From Akkermansiaceae bacterium (GTDB lineage: Bacteria > Verrucomicrobiota > Verrucomicrobiia > Verrucomicrobiales > Akkermansiaceae): a stretch of DNA of 43,445 bases. The notes under the pieces are model-generated. The model saw nothing but the letters and a program-made list of their open reading frames with translations. It was not told where the DNA came from and made no database searches. The stretch is taken from positions 1 through 43,445 of the forward strand of contig SUVM01000003.1 in NCBI GenBank assembly GCA_015062015.1, in the 5' to 3' direction. A program made the position numbers and the translations under genes. This document shows, piece after piece, positions 3,733-13,404 of the stretch (its first letter is position 1; every line of letters starts with the position of its first letter).

Positions 3733-4584
3733 ATGAAAATCGCCTTCAAAAAAGCTGCTGCCGGTTTTACCTTGGTGGAACTGTTGGTAGTGATTGCTAT
3801 TATCGGTATTTTAATGTCCTTGGGTGCCAATGTATTGCAGGACCCGGGGCGCTCTAAGAACGTGACTGCCGGTGTGCAGGTGTTGCAGAATATGATTCAG
3901 GAGGCTCGCGCCACTGCCATTGGTAACGATACTTGTGCGCGTGTTGTGATTGCTTGTGATGAGGCGGATGATTCTCCCGATTCGTTCCACCTGCGTTATA
4001 TGACCGTGCAGGTGTATAAGCGAGACGAAAATGAAAACAAAGAGTACGACGGCACGGATACCGAGCGTGTGGGTGAGTGGAAATCCACCTCCAGCGGTAC
4101 CTTCCTGCCGGCGGATGTGTTTTTCTCCCCCACATACAGCACGCAGTTGCAGTGGGAGGGCGGCAGCGATGTGCCCCTGGAGCAAACGCAAACTCGTTTG
4201 GCCGGCTATGGCGAGGCCGATGTGTATTACATAGAGTTTGATGAAAAAGGGCGTTTTGTGACACCGGACACAAAGCCCGGCGAGCCGGCGCGTGCACGCC
4301 GTTTGGTGCTCATTTGCGGTTATCGAGACAATGGCAGTGGCTCCGTAGATGGTGTGTTGCCGTCCGAGACGGATCCGGAGCACGGAAACCGCCCCAAGGA
4401 GGCCGGCGGTATCGTGTTGTGGCCTTCCGGCAACATCAGCCCCATGAAAACCGCTGCGCAGGTGTATGATGAAGAGTTGTTCAAATCCTCCGGCTCGTCT
4501 CGCAAAAAGGCTTCTTCCAAAAAGAATAAACAGCAGAAGAAAGGCGGCAAATCCGGCAAAAAAAAGGATAACAGCAAAAAATAA
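3733..4584 (+). CDS. Prepilin-like protein (type IV pilin/pseudopilin N-terminus; resembles Verru_Chthon cassette protein D) with Lys-rich C-tail
   Basis: AGFTLVELLVVIAIIGILMSLGANVL class III signal; C-terminal SSRKKASSKKNKQQKKGGKSGKKKDNSKK. Confidence 0.75.
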   Translation: MKIAFKKAAAGFTLVELLVVIAIIGILMSLGANVLQDPGRSKNVTAGVQVLQNMIQEARATAIGNDTCARVVIACDEADDSPDSFHLRYMTVQVYKRDENENKEYDGTDTERVGEWKSTSSGTFLPADVFFSPTYSTQLQWEGGSDVPLEQTQTRLAGYGEADVYYIEFDEKGRFVTPDTKPGEPARARRLVLICGYRDNGSGSVDGVLPSETDPEHGNRPKEAGGIVLWPSGNISPMKTAAQVYDEELFKSSGSSRKKASSKKNKQQKKGGKSGKKKDNSKK

Positions 4585-4626
4585 CCAGCCGCTTCTCGTT
4601 ATTCGCGGAGCATTTTCTCTACTATT

Positions 4627-5367
4627 ATGAAATACCGTAACAATAAACGTTGCCTTTTTGGCTTCACGTTAATGGAGACCCTTTTGGCACTTGCATTGGT
4701 GTCTACCTTAGTGTCTATCTTCTTAGTTGTGTTTGTGCCGGCGCGCGGCATGGTGCAGTCTGCCTTGGCTAAGCAGGATACGGACCGCCTGGTCGGTGTG
4801 TTGCGTGGGGAGTTCAAAACGATTCGCAACGACGAGCGCACCACCGGCAAGTCCTCCGCAACCAAATATGCCTCTGCGTTTGATAAGGCTTTTTATTGGA
4901 TTAAGAAAACCGGTAAACCGGAATCTGCCATTTTGATTTATTCTTACCGCGAGGATTTGTCTCAGAAGCCGCGTAAAGATGGCACCCGCAAACCCATCCC
5001 CGCCTATGAGAGCATACCCGGTGAGACCTCTCACCTTATCACCATTGCCTGCCCTGTGGATGACCCCATCCACGAGGATGAGCTGCGAGATGCCGTGGGC
5101 CCGGTGTATTTGGTGCGTTTGACTATGCAGGAGTACAAGGGCGACAAGTGGGAGCGCGTCTCCAAGCCCGGCGACATTGCAGGAGCCGGCTCCCCGGCAG
5201 AATATTTGGCTAAGTGCGACAAGAACCCGGCCGGCGGAGCGGCACTGTTGTTTGTGGCGGATTTCTTCCTCTTGCAGTCTTCGGATGCCCGGCTTCTGGC
5301 GGGCAAAAAATGGTCCGACATGGGTAAGCCTATTTTCTCTGCCAACATGTCTGTTTCTAACAATTGA
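4627..5367 (+). CDS. Prepilin-like protein (possibly Verru_Chthon cassette protein B-like)
   Basis: FGFTLMETLLALALVSTLVSIFLVVFV class III signal with Glu5; co-directional in a three-pilin cluster. Confidence 0.68.
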   Translation: MKYRNNKRCLFGFTLMETLLALALVSTLVSIFLVVFVPARGMVQSALAKQDTDRLVGVLRGEFKTIRNDERTTGKSSATKYASAFDKAFYWIKKTGKPESAILIYSYREDLSQKPRKDGTRKPIPAYESIPGETSHLITIACPVDDPIHEDELRDAVGPVYLVRLTMQEYKGDKWERVSKPGDIAGAGSPAEYLAKCDKNPAGGAALLFVADFFLLQSSDARLLAGKKWSDMGKPIFSANMSVSNN

Positions 5368-5403
5368 TAAGATTATTCTGAGCTGATAATAGCAAATACA
5401 TAT

Positions 5404-6468
5404 ATGAAACCGGCCCGAAAGATTGTGCGTAAAGGCTTCACGCTGGTGGAGCTGTTGGTAGCTATGGCAATTACGGCTATCATCGTTGGCGTGATATTAA
5501 AGTTAACTATCACCGGTGTATCCCTGTGGAAGTCCGTTAATGACGATGTTACAACCGCTTCTTCCGCCCGTATAGCCTTGCAGACGTTGGCATCGGATTT
5601 GGAGTCGTACCAAATGAAATCCGGCCCCAATGAGTACGAGTGGTTTGTGGCATGCAAGGATTCCGATGCCGAGAAGGCTGTTTCTAAGGGTAAGAAGAAG
5701 AATAGACAAAAGCCCGAGGCCTTAGCCTATGTGCCCGAGTCGTCTCGCGTGGTTTTCTTCTCTTGCGCACCGGACCGCAACCCTGCCGTATCCAGCGACC
5801 CGGTTTCCCGCAAAGGCTACCGTGTGGATTTGTCCACCTCTCAAGATGCAAACGACGAGCCCTACCGTGGCGATGTGAGCGTGATTGGTTATCGTTTGGA
5901 GTATAAGGATCACATCCTCAACAAATCTGCCAGCGATGAGGCAGAGGGCGTGTTCCCCGTATTTGCATTGTATCGCCATGTGGTATCCCCCAGCCGTACA
6001 TACGAGAAGGCCATGTTGCAGGAGAACCTGTACCGTGCATTCTTGCAGTTGGCCGACGATGCCGAGCAGGACATCATCTGCGATAACGTGGTGGAGATGA
6101 ACTTGTCCGTTAACATTGAGTACATGGAATCCGAACCCAAGAAAGGCAAACAGGCCCAGAAGCGCTTGGAAACGGTTACGGTCATCACCACCTCCGGCGG
6201 TGCTAAAGATGACGATAAGAAACGCGCCTCGTTTAAGGAGAACGAAGTGAAGGTGAAAGGTAATGATGTGTTGGCGAACGGTAAGGTATATGCCGGCGGG
6301 CGCATCGTTTCCGCCAACATCTCCGTAACCGTGCTCACGGAAGAGGGTGTGGCACTGGTGGAGAATATGCGTAAAGGCTTGGTGCCCATTCCCCCGCCTC
6401 CGGTTGAGTTCTTTGCCCGTTACTCTCGCCAGTTCTCCACCTCTGTGGCTTTGCCGCGCCCGTTCTGA
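5404..6468 (+). CDS. Prepilin-like protein (GspJ/Verru_Chthon cassette protein C-like)
   Basis: KGFTLVELLVAMAITAIIVGVILKLTITGVSLWKS class III signal; long C-terminal domain. Confidence 0.72.
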   Translation: MKPARKIVRKGFTLVELLVAMAITAIIVGVILKLTITGVSLWKSVNDDVTTASSARIALQTLASDLESYQMKSGPNEYEWFVACKDSDAEKAVSKGKKKNRQKPEALAYVPESSRVVFFSCAPDRNPAVSSDPVSRKGYRVDLSTSQDANDEPYRGDVSVIGYRLEYKDHILNKSASDEAEGVFPVFALYRHVVSPSRTYEKAMLQENLYRAFLQLADDAEQDIICDNVVEMNLSVNIEYMESEPKKGKQAQKRLETVTVITTSGGAKDDDKKRASFKENEVKVKGNDVLANGKVYAGGRIVSANISVTVLTEEGVALVENMRKGLVPIPPPPVEFFARYSRQFSTSVALPRPF

Positions 6469-6476
6469 TTCGCGTT

Positions 6477-7220
6477 ATGATGGATTTTGGTATGCAACAG
6501 CAGGATGCGGCAGCATTGTTGCCGCAAAGTATCCGCCTCTGGTGCGACCCCATTGCCCGTGGTGGTTATGAAAACATGGCTGCGGACGAGCTGCTGAGCC
6601 GCCGCCCCGAGGCGTGGCTGCGTATATACGGTTGGGCACGCCCGGCTGTGAGCTTTGGCTATTTCGATTCCACGCCCGTGGCGGCCGCCATTTTTCCGGG
6701 CGAGGGGATTGAGTACATCCGGCGTTGGACCGGTGGCGGCATAGTGGACCACCGCAAGGGCTACACTTATACCGTTACCTTGCCGGCGCGGGACGGCATC
6801 ATTTATCCCCCGGCAGATAAGTTGTATAAGTGGATACATGGGGCTTTGGCACAAGCCTTACAGCAATGCGGTGTAGAATGCACCTTGTTGGTGGAAGATG
6901 CGCCGGATGGTGGCCGCGCCTGTTGGGCAAGCCCCGTGGCAAGCGATATTGTGGACCCCGCCGGTAACAAATTGGCCGGTGCAGGCCAGCGCCGCTATAG
7001 GGGGGCAGTATTGCACCAGGGCTTAATACAGGAGTGCGAGCCAAGTGCCGGTTGGCCCCGGTTGTTAGCGCAGTATTTGGCTCCGCAAGTGGAAATAGTG
7101 CAGGGCGAGGAGCCCTACCCCGGCTTTGCGGATGAGTTGCAGGAGCTGTGCCGCAGCAAGTATTGCACCGAGGCATGGAATGACGAAACCCGAGGCCGCA
7201 GAAAGCCCGGCCACTCATGA
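6477..7220 (+). CDS. Biotin/lipoate A/B protein ligase family protein (LplA-like)
   Basis: YIRRWTGGGIVDH, CWASPVASDIVDPAGNKLAGAGQRRYRGAVLHQGLIQ motifs. Confidence 0.82.
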   Translation: MMDFGMQQQDAAALLPQSIRLWCDPIARGGYENMAADELLSRRPEAWLRIYGWARPAVSFGYFDSTPVAAAIFPGEGIEYIRRWTGGGIVDHRKGYTYTVTLPARDGIIYPPADKLYKWIHGALAQALQQCGVECTLLVEDAPDGGRACWASPVASDIVDPAGNKLAGAGQRRYRGAVLHQGLIQECEPSAGWPRLLAQYLAPQVEIVQGEEPYPGFADELQELCRSKYCTEAWNDETRGRRKPGHS

Positions 7221-8401
7221 GCGAACGCTCCAAAGAGTACCGCCGTAATGTGGCAGCCGTTATTGTGGATGCTGCGGGGCGTGTCTTGCTGGGGCGTAAG
7301 AGCGATTCGTCTCGCTTTTGGCATTTTCCGCAAGGAGGTGTTGGTCATAAAGAAACTTTTGAGCAGGCTTTGTGGCGCGAGCTTCGGGAGGAAACCGGTT
7401 TGACCCCCGAGCACCTGCAAATCGTTGCCCGTGTAGGCGGGTTGCGCTACCAATACCGCAAAAAAAACAAAAAAAGCAAAGTGTGGGCAGGGCAGCAGCA
7501 AACATATTTTTTGTTACGCTGTACCGGGGCGCATGTTGTTGCAGATGCCGGGCATTCTGCAGAGTTTGCCAAGTTGGAGTGGCTGCCGTGGCGCACGCTT
7601 TCACCGCATATGTTTGTATCTTTTAAGCGCGAGGTGGCGCAAGAGGTATTGGCTGCGTTTTTCCCGCCCGATGTGCGGGATTTGGAAGCCTATTGGCAGC
7701 AATTGAATGCCTTGAGCCGCTACGAGTTTGGCCCGGATAGTATGTTGGCTGCATACGCGCCGGAGGATCGCTCTCTTTTTTTGGGCACTAAAGAAGAAGC
7801 CCGAGCCGCTATGGAAGATTTGCGGCACCGGGTACGCGCGGTGCAGCGGCAATGGGAAAGCATGGCACACCCGCCCCGCATGTTGGTGGTGATACACGAT
7901 GCTGCCCCCACCCCCGGCAAAAGAAGCATCAATTGCCTGCGTCATGCCGCGGATTTGCCGGATCCGCTACATGTGCAGGTATGTAGTCCCTTTGTATCTG
8001 CCGCTTTGCCGCAAGATGCGCTTGCGCCCGTTACGTTCCCACTCCCCCGAGCTTCGGAGTGCTTGTTGACGGCACATTCCCCCTATCGTGCCGTTCTTAC
8101 CGATACCGCGATGCACGACGCTATTGCCGATAACGAGCAACGCTTGCTTGAGCAGCAGGTGTGCCTCTTAAAATTGTATTTGCATATCTCGCCCGAGCAA
8201 TTCTTCAAAACCTGCCCCACAGCCCCGCCCGCTGCCTATGAAAACCATACCTCTGCCGCAGAATGCTTCTTGCGGCGCACAGCGCAGGTAGTGCCCTGGT
8301 TTATTATCCCCGCAGAAAAAAAGTGGTACCGAGATTTTGTTATTGCCACACTTTTGACGACAATGGCAGAAAATGCGACCACCGAAGCACTTTCTCGGTG
8401 A
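7217..8401 (+). CDS. RppH-like Nudix hydrolase with C-terminal degenerate PPK2-like domain
   Basis: Perfect Nudix box [23 protein letters not shown] (Gx5Ex7REUxEExGU). C-terminal half resembles PPK2: [55 protein letters not shown] overlap with the upstream gene. Confidence 0.8.
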
Positions 8402-8474: not shown

Positions 8475-9839
8475 ATGAAAAGAACTCTGGTAAAACATGC
8501 GCTGGCAAGTGAGGCCGCGCAGGATTCTATTCTTGTTGAAGGGTGGGTGCGTACCCGCCGGGATTCTAAGGCTTTCTCCTTTTTGGAAATCAATGACGGC
8601 ACCTCTCTGGCATCCATTCAAGTTATTGCAGATGCCGGTATCCCCGGTTACGAAAATATCGGTAAAATGTCCACCGGGGCTTCTGTTTCCGTTGTAGGCC
8701 GCTTGGTAGAGAGCCCCGGCAAGCAGAAGTGGGAAATACAAGCCACAGAGTTGCGTCTGGTCGGCACATCGCCGGAAAGTTATCCCCTGCAGAAAAAGGG
8801 CCACTCCCCGGAGTTTTTGCGCACAATCGCCCATTTGCGCCCGCGTACCAACCTGTTCGGCGCTGTCTTCCGTACGCGTTCTCGTATAGCGGCTGCCGTG
8901 CATCAATTCTTTACGGAGCGTGATTTTGTGTGGGTGCATACCCCCATCATTACCGCGTCGGACTGCGAAGGTGCCGGCGAGATGTTCCACGTCACCACGC
9001 TAGATCCTTTGGCGGACAACAAGAGCTACGATAAGGATTTCTTTGGTAAAGCTGCCAGTTTGACCGTATCCGGCCAGTTGGAGGGAGAAACCTTTGCCTG
9101 CGCCCTTAGTAATATTTATACGTTCGGCCCCACTTTCCGTGCAGAAAACAGCAATACCACCCGACACGCAGCAGAGTTTTGGATGATTGAGCCCGAAATC
9201 GCCTTCTGCGATATTTTCGGCGATATGGATGTGGCAGAATCTTTCATCAAGCACATTGCCGACACCATGTTGGCCGATACCTCCGGCGATTTCGATTTCT
9301 TCTGCAAGTTTGTTGATAAAGGCCTGCGTGCCCGCTTGGAGGAAGTCAGCCAAAAGCCCTTCATCCGTTGCTCGTATACAGAGGCCATAGAGATTATGCT
9401 GGCCAGTGGAGAGAAGTTTGAGTATCCGCCCTATTGGGGGATGGATTTGCAGAGCGAGCACGAGCGCTTCCTGACAGAACGCCACTTCAAGAGCCCTGTT
9501 ATCGTTTACAACTATCCCAAGGAAATTAAGCCTTTCTACATGCGCCTTAATGATGATGGCAAAACTGTAACCGCTATGGATGTGCTGGTACCCGGTATCG
9601 GCGAAATTATCGGCGGTAGCCAACGTGAGGAGCGCTTGGACGTGCTCGAGGGCAACATCGCCCGCTTGGGTATGGATGCCGAGGCCTATTACTGGTACAA
9701 CGACCTCCGCCGCTATGGTACCGTGCCGCATGCCGGTTTTGGTGTCGGGTTCGAGCGTCTTATCATGTTTGTAACCGGCGTACAGAACATACGCGACGTG
9801 TTGCCCTACCCGCGTACCCCCCGTAACTGTGAATTCTGA
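8475..9839 (+). CDS. asnS: Asparagine--tRNA ligase
   Basis: [73 protein letters not shown]; start placed at [10 protein letters not shown] rather than at the ORF-track start. Confidence 0.95.
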
Positions 9840-9903: not shown

Positions 9904-11301
9904 ATGAATATCCAACCGAAATTCACACCTGTGCTCGACCCGGACTTCGTAGCTCCGGTACTTTGGAACAAGGCCTATGAGGAGAAGGTAGCCGCTACCC
10001 CCGATTCTCATGCCATTGATATTGCTCTTACCCGTATCGACGGAACCTGCTTCCGTTGGAGCGGTAAAGTGTTGCCCTCTTCCGAGGAGAACGACGCTCT
10101 GAACAATCAGTACATTGAGCGTATTGTTAAGTTCTTGCTTTGGATGAAAGGCGGCTGCACCATTATGGTTGCCGGTGATGACAAGATTGCCGATATGCTG
10201 GCTGCAACATACTGTGCCGGGGGTGCCCGCGAGTTCGACTGGGATTTCATCGGTAAAAAGATTTACGACCGTCCCATCGAGGTGGTGAAGGTAGCCTGCG
10301 CTTGCGAACTGCCCGCAGAAAACTCTACCTCCGTTTCTCTGGGGCGCAATCTGGACGGCTACCGCATCGGTTTCGACCTCGGCGGTTCGGACCGCAAGTG
10401 CGCCGCCGTAATCAACGGCGAGGTAGTGTACTCCGAAGAAGTGGTGTGGGACCCCTACCACCAGACGGACCCCAACTACCAGGTAGAGGGTGTGCACGAC
10501 TCCTTGGAGCGTGCTGCTAAGCACTTGCCGCAGGTAGATGCCATCGGCGGTTCCGCTGCCGGTGTGTATGTGAACAGCGAGCCCCGCGTCGGCTCTCTTT
10601 TCCGTGGCATTGCTCAGGATGATTTTGTGAACGTCATTCGCCCCATGTTCAAGAACCTCAAGGACCGCTGGAGCAAGATTCAGGGCAAAGAGGTACCGTT
10701 TGAGGTGGTGAACGACGGCGAGGTAACGGCTCTTGCCGGTGCCATGGGCATGAACGATGATGCCGTGCTCGGCATTGCCATGGGTACCTCTCTGGCTGCC
10801 GGTTATGTGGACCCCGAGGGGCATATCATGCCTTGGCTCAACGAGCTTGCTTTCGTACCCGTTGACTATCAGCAGGACGGCGGCGTAGACGAATGGTCCC
10901 GCGATAAAGGTGTGGGTGCCATGTATTTCTCCCAGCAGGCTGTGGCTCGTTTGGCTCCGCGTGCCGGTTTCGAGTTCGGTGCCATGCCGTACCCGGAGCA
11001 GCTTAAAAAGGTGCAAGCCGCTATGGCAGAGGGAGACGAGCGCGCCCGCAAGATATACGAGACAATCGGCGTAGAGTTTGGTTACACCATTGCCTATTTC
11101 TCCAAATTCTATGCACTGCGCAATCTGCTCTTCCTGGGGCGTGTTGCTACCGGCGAAGGCGGGCAAATCATCATCGACAAGGCTAACGAGGTGCTTGCCT
11201 CCGAGTTCCCCGAGCTGGCCATCACGCTTTGCGTGCCCGATGAAAAGACGAAGCGCCATGGGCAGGCCGTTGCAGCCGCATCGCTGCCCAAGCTTGCTTA
11301 A
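9904..11301 (+). CDS. ROK family sugar kinase (glucokinase-like)
   Basis: IGFDLGGSDRKCAAVINGEVVYSE (phosphate-binding), VVNDGEVTALAGAMG, VLGIAMGTSLAAGYVDPEG. Confidence 0.78.
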   Translation: MNIQPKFTPVLDPDFVAPVLWNKAYEEKVAATPDSHAIDIALTRIDGTCFRWSGKVLPSSEENDALNNQYIERIVKFLLWMKGGCTIMVAGDDKIADMLAATYCAGGAREFDWDFIGKKIYDRPIEVVKVACACELPAENSTSVSLGRNLDGYRIGFDLGGSDRKCAAVINGEVVYSEEVVWDPYHQTDPNYQVEGVHDSLERAAKHLPQVDAIGGSAAGVYVNSEPRVGSLFRGIAQDDFVNVIRPMFKNLKDRWSKIQGKEVPFEVVNDGEVTALAGAMGMNDDAVLGIAMGTSLAAGYVDPEGHIMPWLNELAFVPVDYQQDGGVDEWSRDKGVGAMYFSQQAVARLAPRAGFEFGAMPYPEQLKKVQAAMAEGDERARKIYETIGVEFGYTIAYFSKFYALRNLLFLGRVATGEGGQIIIDKANEVLASEFPELAITLCVPDEKTKRHGQAVAAASLPKLA

Positions 11302-11385: not shown

Positions 11386-13404
11386 ATGGCCGGCGGTATA
11401 GAGACATGGTATTGCCCGGAGTGTTCCACCCCGGTAGATATTGCGTCCTTGGGTTTTTACACCGAGGTAAAGTGCCCGTCCTGCGGGCGCGAGGACCATG
11501 TGCATGTACTGTTGGCCAACTTTCGGCTGGAGGGGTTGTTGGGTATCGGCGGCATGAGCGTGGTGCTGCGCGGGCGCGATGTGCTGCTGAATCGGCCCGT
11601 AGCCATTAAATTGTTGAATGATACCTACCGCGAGCGTCCGGAGCGTATAGCACGCTTCGAGAACGAGTGCTCCCTTATGGCTAAAGTACGCCACGAAAAC
11701 GTGGTTTCCGTGTACTCTGCGGGCTGGGCCAAGGAGCAATTTTATATTGCCATGGAGTTGCTGGAGGGCGATAACCTGGAGTCTCTCGTTACAACCGAGC
11801 AGCCCTTGCAACCCCTGCGTGCCATAGATATTACCATTCAGATTGCCCGGGGGCTGGAGGCCGCACACCGCGCCGGTATGTTGCATAGGGACATGAAGCC
11901 CGGCAACGTCATCATTACCCCGGATGGCGTGGCAAAGGTGTTGGATTTCGGCTTAGCCCAGGCAGATTCCGAGGAAGACACGGAAGAAGTCATTTGGGCT
12001 ACCCCATACTATGTAGCCCCCGAAACCCTGCAACGCGGCGCGGAAGATGCCCGTACCGATATTTACTCTCTGGGTATGACGCTCCGATACCTCTTAACCG
12101 GTATCGAAACCCTCGGCGAAAATCATCATTCCGTATCAGCCTTGTTAGAGGCTAAACATCAGTTACCGACTCTGGAAAAGATTTTACCCAAGGCAGATGA
12201 TACCCTGTGCGATTTGGTAAATCATATGACGGAGTTTTTGCCCGAAAATCGGCATGATAATTATGCGGATTTGCTTGCAGAACTCTGCGAAGTGCGCTCT
12301 GTGTTGAAGGAGAAACAGTTGGTAAAAACATCCCCGCGTAAGCGCCTGGTTCGCCTGCGCAACAGGTTGATTGCCGGTACCTCCGTAGTCATAGTTGGTG
12401 TGGGTGCCTTTTTCGGCGGTTATTACCTCAATACGCCATCTCCTCAACAGGCCGTTCTGCCTGTAGCTGCTTCCTCTGCTATGGGGGCTGCCCATGCCTC
12501 CTCCGTCAGCGCTGCATTCAAGGCAATGCGTAAATCTCGTTGGGATAAAGCTTTGGAGCACTTCAATAAGCAACTTACCCCGGAAGCAGAGCCTACACAA
12601 GCTGCTTGGTCCGCTTTGCATGCAGCGGCATTGGCCTATTTGCTCAACAAGGATGCCGCCCTTGTAGACGACTATGTGGCCGCCTACCGCAACGCCGTGC
12701 AAGGCATGCCCGAATCCGGCATCGCGAGCGAAGAAATCGCTCGCCAACTTCGCATCATTAACCAAGCCCTGGATACCCCGGAAAAGTTATCGGAGGTGGC
12801 AGATCGCCGCTTGCTGGGGCTGGCACATATTTTGGCCGTACGTTATTATTTACAAACAAACGCGGCCAATAAGGCAAAGGCAGCTATCGCTGCCGCGTGC
12901 GATGAGTTTAAGCTTGTGGGTAGCTCCCCTTACGACTCCGCATATTTCGACTTGGCGCAACAGCTGGAAACAACGTATACCACTGTTTTCTACATTGCAT
13001 CATACCACGAGGCTTTACAATTGTTGGCCGACCATCAATTTGACGAGGCAGAGCGTAAATTAAATGATTTGCAGGTGCAAGCAGGCGATAAGGCGGAAGA
13101 AATTCGCGTGCTCGCAGAGCTTTGCAGCCTTGGTAAAACCTTGCAGGATACCTTGGTGAGAGTCATGAAAGATGCCTATACCCCCGGGTTGAAAGCAGAT
13201 GATTTTATAAAACTCAACAACGAGAAAAAATTTGTCAACAATCAGCGCGCAAGAGAGATTTGCACTCTTTTATCATTGTTGTCTCACTCCTATACCAAGG
13301 CATTCGAGGAAAACCCATACAAATCGAAGCCGGATAGTAACGAGCCCCTTGCCATCCTGTTGAGGGATTGGCAAAGACGCCTTGCGCCTTACATGAACGA
13401 GTAA
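11386..13404 (+). CDS. Serine/threonine protein kinase with N-terminal zinc ribbon, TM helix and helical-repeat C-terminus
   Basis: WYCPECSTPV...VKCPSCGRED zinc ribbon; GIGGMSVVLRG, VAIKLL, HRDMKPGNVII, DFGLAQ, APE motifs; TM segment LIAGTSVVIVGVGAFFGGYYL. Confidence 0.92.
   Translation: MAGGIETWYCPECSTPVDIASLGFYTEVKCPSCGREDHVHVLLANFRLEGLLGIGGMSVVLRGRDVLLNRPVAIKLLNDTYRERPERIARFENECSLMAKVRHENVVSVYSAGWAKEQFYIAMELLEGDNLESLVTTEQPLQPLRAIDITIQIARGLEAAHRAGMLHRDMKPGNVIITPDGVAKVLDFGLAQADSEEDTEEVIWATPYYVAPETLQRGAEDARTDIYSLGMTLRYLLTGIETLGENHHSVSALLEAKHQLPTLEKILPKADDTLCDLVNHMTEFLPENRHDNYADLLAELCEVRSVLKEKQLVKTSPRKRLVRLRNRLIAGTSVVIVGVGAFFGGYYLNTPSPQQAVLPVAASSAMGAAHASSVSAAFKAMRKSRWDKALEHFNKQLTPEAEPTQAAWSALHAAALAYLLNKDAALVDDYVAAYRNAVQGMPESGIASEEIARQLRIINQALDTPEKLSEVADRRLLGLAHILAVRYYLQTNAANKAKAAIAAACDEFKLVGSSPYDSAYFDLAQQLETTYTTVFYIASYHEALQLLADHQFDEAERKLNDLQVQAGDKAEEIRVLAELCSLGKTLQDTLVRVMKDAYTPGLKADDFIKLNNEKKFVNNQRAREICTLLSLLSHSYTKAFEENPYKSKPDSNEPLAILLRDWQRRLAPYMNE

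Follow-up and report, generated by a model that had tools for sequence, protein, structure and literature searches.

A predicted RppH-type Nudix hydrolase of Akkermansia is joined to a class III PPK2 domain that has lost its kinase active site and is retained

The fusion gene and its surroundings

In this study, we analysed a window of 43,445 nucleotides from a genome that is an Akkermansia; related loci in the public record come from Akkermansia MAGs of ruminant and other guts. The plus strand holds an ORF for a protein of 394 amino acids at 7217–8401, preceded on the same strand by the LplA-type ligase gene lplA (6477–7220), a conserved upstream neighbour whose stop codon overlaps the start of the ORF, and followed, also on the plus strand, by the asparaginyl-tRNA synthetase gene (8475–9839), which comes next in the ruminant clade as well as in the window clade. 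Sequence and structure profiles together with an AlphaFold2 model of the window protein (pLDDT 85.7) confirmed that the predicted product combines a Nudix hydrolase of the RppH type with a class III PPK2 domain that is degenerate, in line with an earlier note that had proposed this combination. When the model was used with Foldseek, RppH was matched with an E-value of 1.3e-14 and a class III PPK2 (5ld1) with 7.8e-13, the latter being the structural match of the C-terminal part on which the earlier proposal hinged.

Further upstream, positions 3733–6468 contain three consecutive pilin-like genes, two of them with a Pfam N_methyl motif, which are fast-evolving, yet syntenic across much of the genus. 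On the other side, the gene at 9904–11301 has no Pfam match, though it is 92–96% identical among near relatives and shows, by eye, an ASKHA/ROK-like DLGGSD motif. The gene at 11386–13404 encodes a serine/threonine protein kinase with N-terminal Cys motifs and has an identity of 42–66% among the same near relatives.

The Nudix half

The Nudix domain of the RppH type covers residues 7–149 (7235–7663). The N-terminal half matched Pfam NUDIX with an E-value of 1.4e-19, E. coli RppH structures matched residues 7–149 with 5.7e-18, and the Nudix box, which the earlier note had recognized, is complete at residues 40–62 (7334–7402). The catalytic glutamates E55, E58, E59 and E116, the last corresponding to the fourth glutamate of RppH, E120, are present in all 46 fusion proteins described below. 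It has been reported that the 5'-triphosphate ligands of E. coli RppH are R8, N10, Q37, Y77, Q95 and K140 (PMC7144940); their counterparts R9, N11, Q39, Y78, Q93 and K137 are all found in the window protein and are kept in 45–46 of the 46 fusions. The fused domain is therefore like E. coli RppH in its catalytic Glu set, its triphosphate ligands and its fold. However, the window protein has an extra C-terminal domain and scores below NCBIfam cut-offs (98.8 versus 139 bits for the RppH equivalog), and the RppH base-cleft residues R27, S32, V137 and F139 are aligned, in a loop where the alignment is uncertain, with K28, R33, V134 and F136, so that R27 and S32 appear not to be conserved. RppH processes the 5' ends of RNA and also cleaves (p)ppGpp and NTPs, though slowly (PMC7144940). 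The genome containing the window encodes another protein of the RppH type elsewhere (G000:C48:622-1074), and the RNA decapper is therefore not necessarily the fused enzyme; the link from polyP to RNA decay or alarmone cleavage put forward in the earlier note is a conjecture.

The PPK2 half and its lost catalytic parts

The degenerate class III PPK2-like domain spans residues 164–394 (7706–8398). Pfam PPK2 matched the isolated C-terminal half with 28.5 bits against a cut-off of 22.3, the M. ruber PPK2-III structure matched residues 166–385 with an E-value of 1.5e-10, and a profile of the family found M. ruber PPK2 with 2.9e-69. TIGR03709 gave an E-value of 4e-13, yet with 49 versus 247 bits missed its NCBIfam cut-off. 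A Pfam PPK2 search of the whole genome missed the window protein (E 0.001), and family models therefore understate this degenerate type of PPK2.

The window domain shares its fold with the class III PPK2 proteins of M. ruber, D. radiodurans and Erysipelotrichaceae (EbPPK2), and seemingly also the entrance of their polyP channel, whereas the Walker lysine, the base contacts and the lid are absent from it. In the ruined Walker A (residues 225–242, 7889–7942), S237 occupies the position of the catalytic lysine and A230 that of the aspartate, while R242, which corresponds to EbPPK2 R75, is kept. A visible GK had been read as a remnant of this site; the alignment rules this out, as the GK is a coincidence of a three-residue insertion. 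The ruined Walker B and nucleobase loop (residues 283–292, 8063–8092) replaces xxFNRSHYED and has AHS where (D/N)RS/NRS is expected, and the equivalents of the EbPPK2 nucleobase contacts R106 and D127 are P271 and A292. Finally, the basic lid (R-x3-R and K198, K201 of EbPPK2, with their helices) is deleted, the alignment placing the deletion site at residues 330–338 (8204–8230). The same losses run through the 29 degenerate proteins, among which the Walker A lysine is absent without exception (R in 17, L in 9, and C, S and M in 1 each), the Walker aspartate is lost or replaced by Glu in 25, the lid lysines are missing in 28, and the equivalent of R106 is left in 2 proteins and that of D127 in none. 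The predicted catalytic death of the PPK2 half, also put forward in the earlier note, is thus borne out at the sequence level. The degenerate form that looks least changed, L008 (G050), reads GLDGSGCD, with the Walker lysine changed to Cys, a few other changes and a lid that is mostly present; judged by these residues it is possibly a transitional form.

Distribution, orthology and a single loss of the active site

A PPK2-type domain is present in 46 of 77 Akkermansia genomes, and each of the 46 has it fused to a Nudix domain; in one further genome of the genus (G055), which is outside these 46, the locus is interrupted by a contig end. In samples of 288 genomes from the order and 146 from the phylum, the fusion was confined to this genus, and elsewhere Nudix and PPK2 proteins are separate. 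This distribution shows that the joining of a Nudix domain to a class III PPK2 took place in Akkermansia. Every catalytic motif of PPK2 is intact in 17 of the 46 fusions, which belong to the A. muciniphila-like half of the genus and to basal lineages and carry QAMDAGGKDG or QGMDASGKDG, FNRSHYED and a full lid; the Walker A is therefore not always lost in this architecture, a point that the earlier note had raised as a question. The PPK2 domain is degenerate in the other 29, the window protein included. The intact A. muciniphila-like fusion (L012, L014, L023; 447 amino acids) has the same architecture and is orthologous by tree, but possesses all of the PPK2 catalytic motifs and the lid that the window protein lacks. 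In addition, the fusion lies directly behind lplA in the degenerate genomes and likewise in G013 and G028, two basal genomes with an intact domain, and this shared position also shows that intact and degenerate fusions are orthologous.

In a PPK1 species tree, the intact genomes form one side of a branch (100*), and the difference between intact and degenerate domains is a single change; the tree of the Nudix half contains the same single split (branch 99*). Both trees show that the kinase active site was lost once, on the branch ancestral to one half of the genus, and many independent catalytic losses are unneeded. In 15 genomes without the gene that were examined, no remnant of either half was found beside lplA, which is still there; on the tree they represent two independent whole-gene losses, both in the degenerate half. 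A Nudix half without the dead domain was found in no genome of the genus survey.

Most stand-alone PPK2 proteins from other genera of the family are 53–69% identical to the intact fused PPK2, from which we infer that the latter most likely came from the family's stand-alone gene. A second, stand-alone class III-like PPK2 is encoded approximately 10 kb away in most A. muciniphila-like genomes with an intact fusion (L146, L147, L150, L152 and others; G017, G097, G004, G047). Among the intact-fusion genomes, the fusion is the only PPK2 in G013, G028 and G114, whereas none of the genomes examined with a degenerate fusion yielded a second full PPK2. PPK1 is present in 75 of the 77 Akkermansia genomes, and polyP can therefore be made.

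Constraint on the dead domain

Values of dN/dS were calculated by the Nei–Gojobori method for close pairs. The dead domain gave 0.13–0.195 in the pairs G002/G043, G040/G052, G002/G006, G008/G014 and G008/G111, and 0.01–0.04 in most pairs of the ruminant clade, where dS is near saturation; the latter values are often below those of the Nudix half of the same genes and similar to those of the intact PPK2 among A. muciniphila-like genomes (about 0.01–0.06). Considering dN alone, the pair G105/G106 has 0.095 in the Nudix half and 0.013 in the dead domain. Mean identities within the ruminant clade are 69% for the Nudix half, 84% for the dead domain and 86% for PPK1, compared with 66%, 47% and 85% within the window clade, and for G000, G103 and the G002/G006 pair the dead domain is only 36–41% identical, versus 57–64% for the Nudix half and 80–87% for PPK1. 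The dead domain thus evolves in two regimes, frozen in the ruminant clade and fast in the window clade. In the ruminant-gut loci (L032–L037, L039, L138–L141), the dead PPK2 varies less than the catalytic Nudix half and has a new conserved stretch, RPEWQPEEYDMVALQQYPAESEIRLMCRRMQDR. The computed pI of the domain falls from 8.8–9.0 (the A. muciniphila-like G017 and G028) to 6.3 in the window lineage.

The reading frame is open in all 46 fusion genes, which together with the dN/dS values rules out a decaying pseudogene as the main reading. As both domains are present in all 29 degenerate proteins, the losses were of whole genes, dN/dS is low and the ruminant clade is well conserved, the dead domain is not simply decaying. 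Constraint and joint retention show that the Nudix enzyme has held on to it as a part without catalytic function.

Surviving residues and the polyP channel

With single exceptions at several positions, the 29 degenerate domains have kept Y169, G190, K192, E194, R242, D249, P250, P277, E307, L322, P365, W370, Y371 and R372. Nine of these (Y169, D249, P250, P277, E307, L322, P365, W370 and Y371) resemble the fold core. The polyP channel of EbPPK2 is lined by K29, K70, R75, R188, R192, K198, K201, R241, K242 and R246 (PMC12257356), and when mapped on the family, K29 corresponds to K192 (7790–7792), which is basic in all 29 degenerate proteins (28 K, 1 R), R75 to R242, and R241/K242 to K368/K369; R372 is aligned one residue before the R246 position. 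The latter three residues of the window protein lie in a conserved block at residues 360–373 (8294–8335). K369 is mostly kept, and K368/K369 are lost in several lineages. The polyP pocket proposed for FtPPK2 includes K228, K229 and R232 (PMC4748334), a K-K-x-x-R spacing that would correspond to K368-K369-W-Y-R372 here.

The intact domain has 39 basic columns, and of these only K192, R242 and R372 are basic in all 29 degenerate proteins. The six best-kept of the 39 include four of the nine polyP-channel positions (hypergeometric p 0.018, or 0.002 with R372 counted as a channel position, both values ignoring shared ancestry). The fold does not require R372, as 10 of 23 stand-alone PPK2 proteins are without it. 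The pattern that emerges is a polyP channel whose entrance keeps its basic residues, with the active site, lid and base pocket erased. This residue pattern fits a grip on polyP or another polyanion better than nucleotide sensing, although structural roles may also be involved, and the retained basic residues would be compatible with polyP sensing as suggested in the earlier note. Its other suggestion, a nucleotide sensor, is unlikely on account of the lost base contacts and was set aside.

Interpretation and alternatives

We consider it likely that the fusion protein is a predicted live Nudix enzyme of the RppH or Ap4A-hydrolase type with a pseudo-PPK2 domain, whose catalysis was lost once and which is kept in a non-catalytic capacity, as a presumed scaffold or regulator, with polyP or another polyanion as the likeliest ligand. 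In this reading, the joining of the two domains in Akkermansia, shown by the distribution, was followed by the single loss of the kinase active site that the trees show, and the dead PPK2 was then retained, presumably as a scaffold and/or regulator of the Nudix half. If there is a ligand, polyP or another polyanion would be gripped by the surviving entry half of the channel, and once bound would tether or tune the Nudix active site. Selection keeps the dead part, which has therefore probably taken on a new role other than catalysis, for example binding polyP or holding the enzyme together. However, the fast change of the dead domain in the window clade would also fit slow decay, and the drop in pI in the window lineage and the loss of K368/K369 in several lineages also count against this proposal.

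A possible, though tentative, alternative is that the dead PPK2 fold is kept purely because it lets the Nudix half form dimers or tetramers and stay soluble, with no ligand. PPK2 proteins are oligomeric, ranging from dimers to octamers (PMC8776046), many of the invariant residues resemble the fold core, and the ruminant-clade model is predicted to be well packed overall (pTM 0.85). On its own, however, such a scaffold gives no account of the three fully kept basic columns in or beside the polyP channel, one of which, R372, is dispensable for the fold. A more far-reaching version of the favoured reading, in which the pseudo-PPK2 is a polyP receptor that gates or tethers the Nudix domain, so that the polyP level would set RNA 5'-end processing or dinucleoside-polyphosphate cleavage, seems rather unlikely to us; if true, one half of a bacterial genus would have made a ligand-sensing domain out of a kinase.

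We give little credence to the idea that the domain is dying, that is, a tolerated tail decaying slowly after the loss of catalysis and on its way to gene loss. The low identity and the indels in the window clade and the two independent gene losses in the same half of the genus would agree with it, but dN/dS lies far under 1 for every close pair of degenerate genes, ruminant-clade values are as low as those of the intact PPK2, and no truncated Nudix-only form accompanies the uniformly open frames. Similarly improbable is substrate delivery, in which the dead domain would grip polyP and feed it to the Nudix site, making the protein a polyP hydrolase. The channel-entry residues are kept, and two reports describe polyP cleavage by eukaryotic Nudix enzymes such as DDP1 and T. 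brucei NUDIX hydrolases (PMC8064635, PMC6522730). Against this, Ppx is also found in most genomes (64 of 77). Moreover, the Nudix half is RppH-like, and bacterial RppH is not known to be a polyphosphatase. It is most improbable that substitute residues keep the PPK2 half catalytic since, although some lineages hold a glycine-rich loop with R for K, the Walker lysine, base contacts and lid are all lost, and changing K66, R118 or R178 of FtPPK2 to alanine strongly cuts activity (PMC8776046).

Several known systems share features with the fusion. Mycobacterial MutT1 (a weak whole-chain Foldseek match) is likewise a two-domain Nudix enzyme with a C-terminal phosphate-handling domain, but this has a histidine phosphatase fold and not that of PPK2. 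In P. aeruginosa, PPK2C/PA3455 also holds a catalytically inactive PPK2 domain; however, it is fused to an active PPK2 and not to a Nudix enzyme (PMC8776046). In the RppH–DapF complex, the fold of a metabolic enzyme stimulates RppH (PMC7144940), but DapF is a separate protein of unrelated fold, whereas the Akkermansia partner is covalently fused and catalytically dead. Our literature search, which most subscription journals were outside of, yielded no relevant description of a Nudix–PPK2 fusion, a PPK2 pseudoenzyme or an Akkermansia PPK2; within the literature searched, a Nudix hydrolase with a pseudo-kinase accessory domain is thus without precedent, and the earlier note was likewise aware of none. 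It is a clear addition to the short list of degenerate PPK2 domains. One genus offers a natural experiment, in which the kinase is live in A. muciniphila-like species and, in the sister half, dead yet under selection, and two proteins would suffice to ask whether a hydrolase that processes nucleotides or RNA is controlled by the binding of polyP as distinct from its chemistry.

The Nudix half also differs between the two states. In a loop where the alignment is uncertain, the position of RppH R27 is Asp in 16 of 17 intact fusions and Lys or Arg in 20 of 29 degenerate ones, and that of V137 is Pro in 16 of 17 and Val in 24 of 29, respectively. Going by these residues, the specificity of the Nudix enzyme may have shifted when the kinase died.
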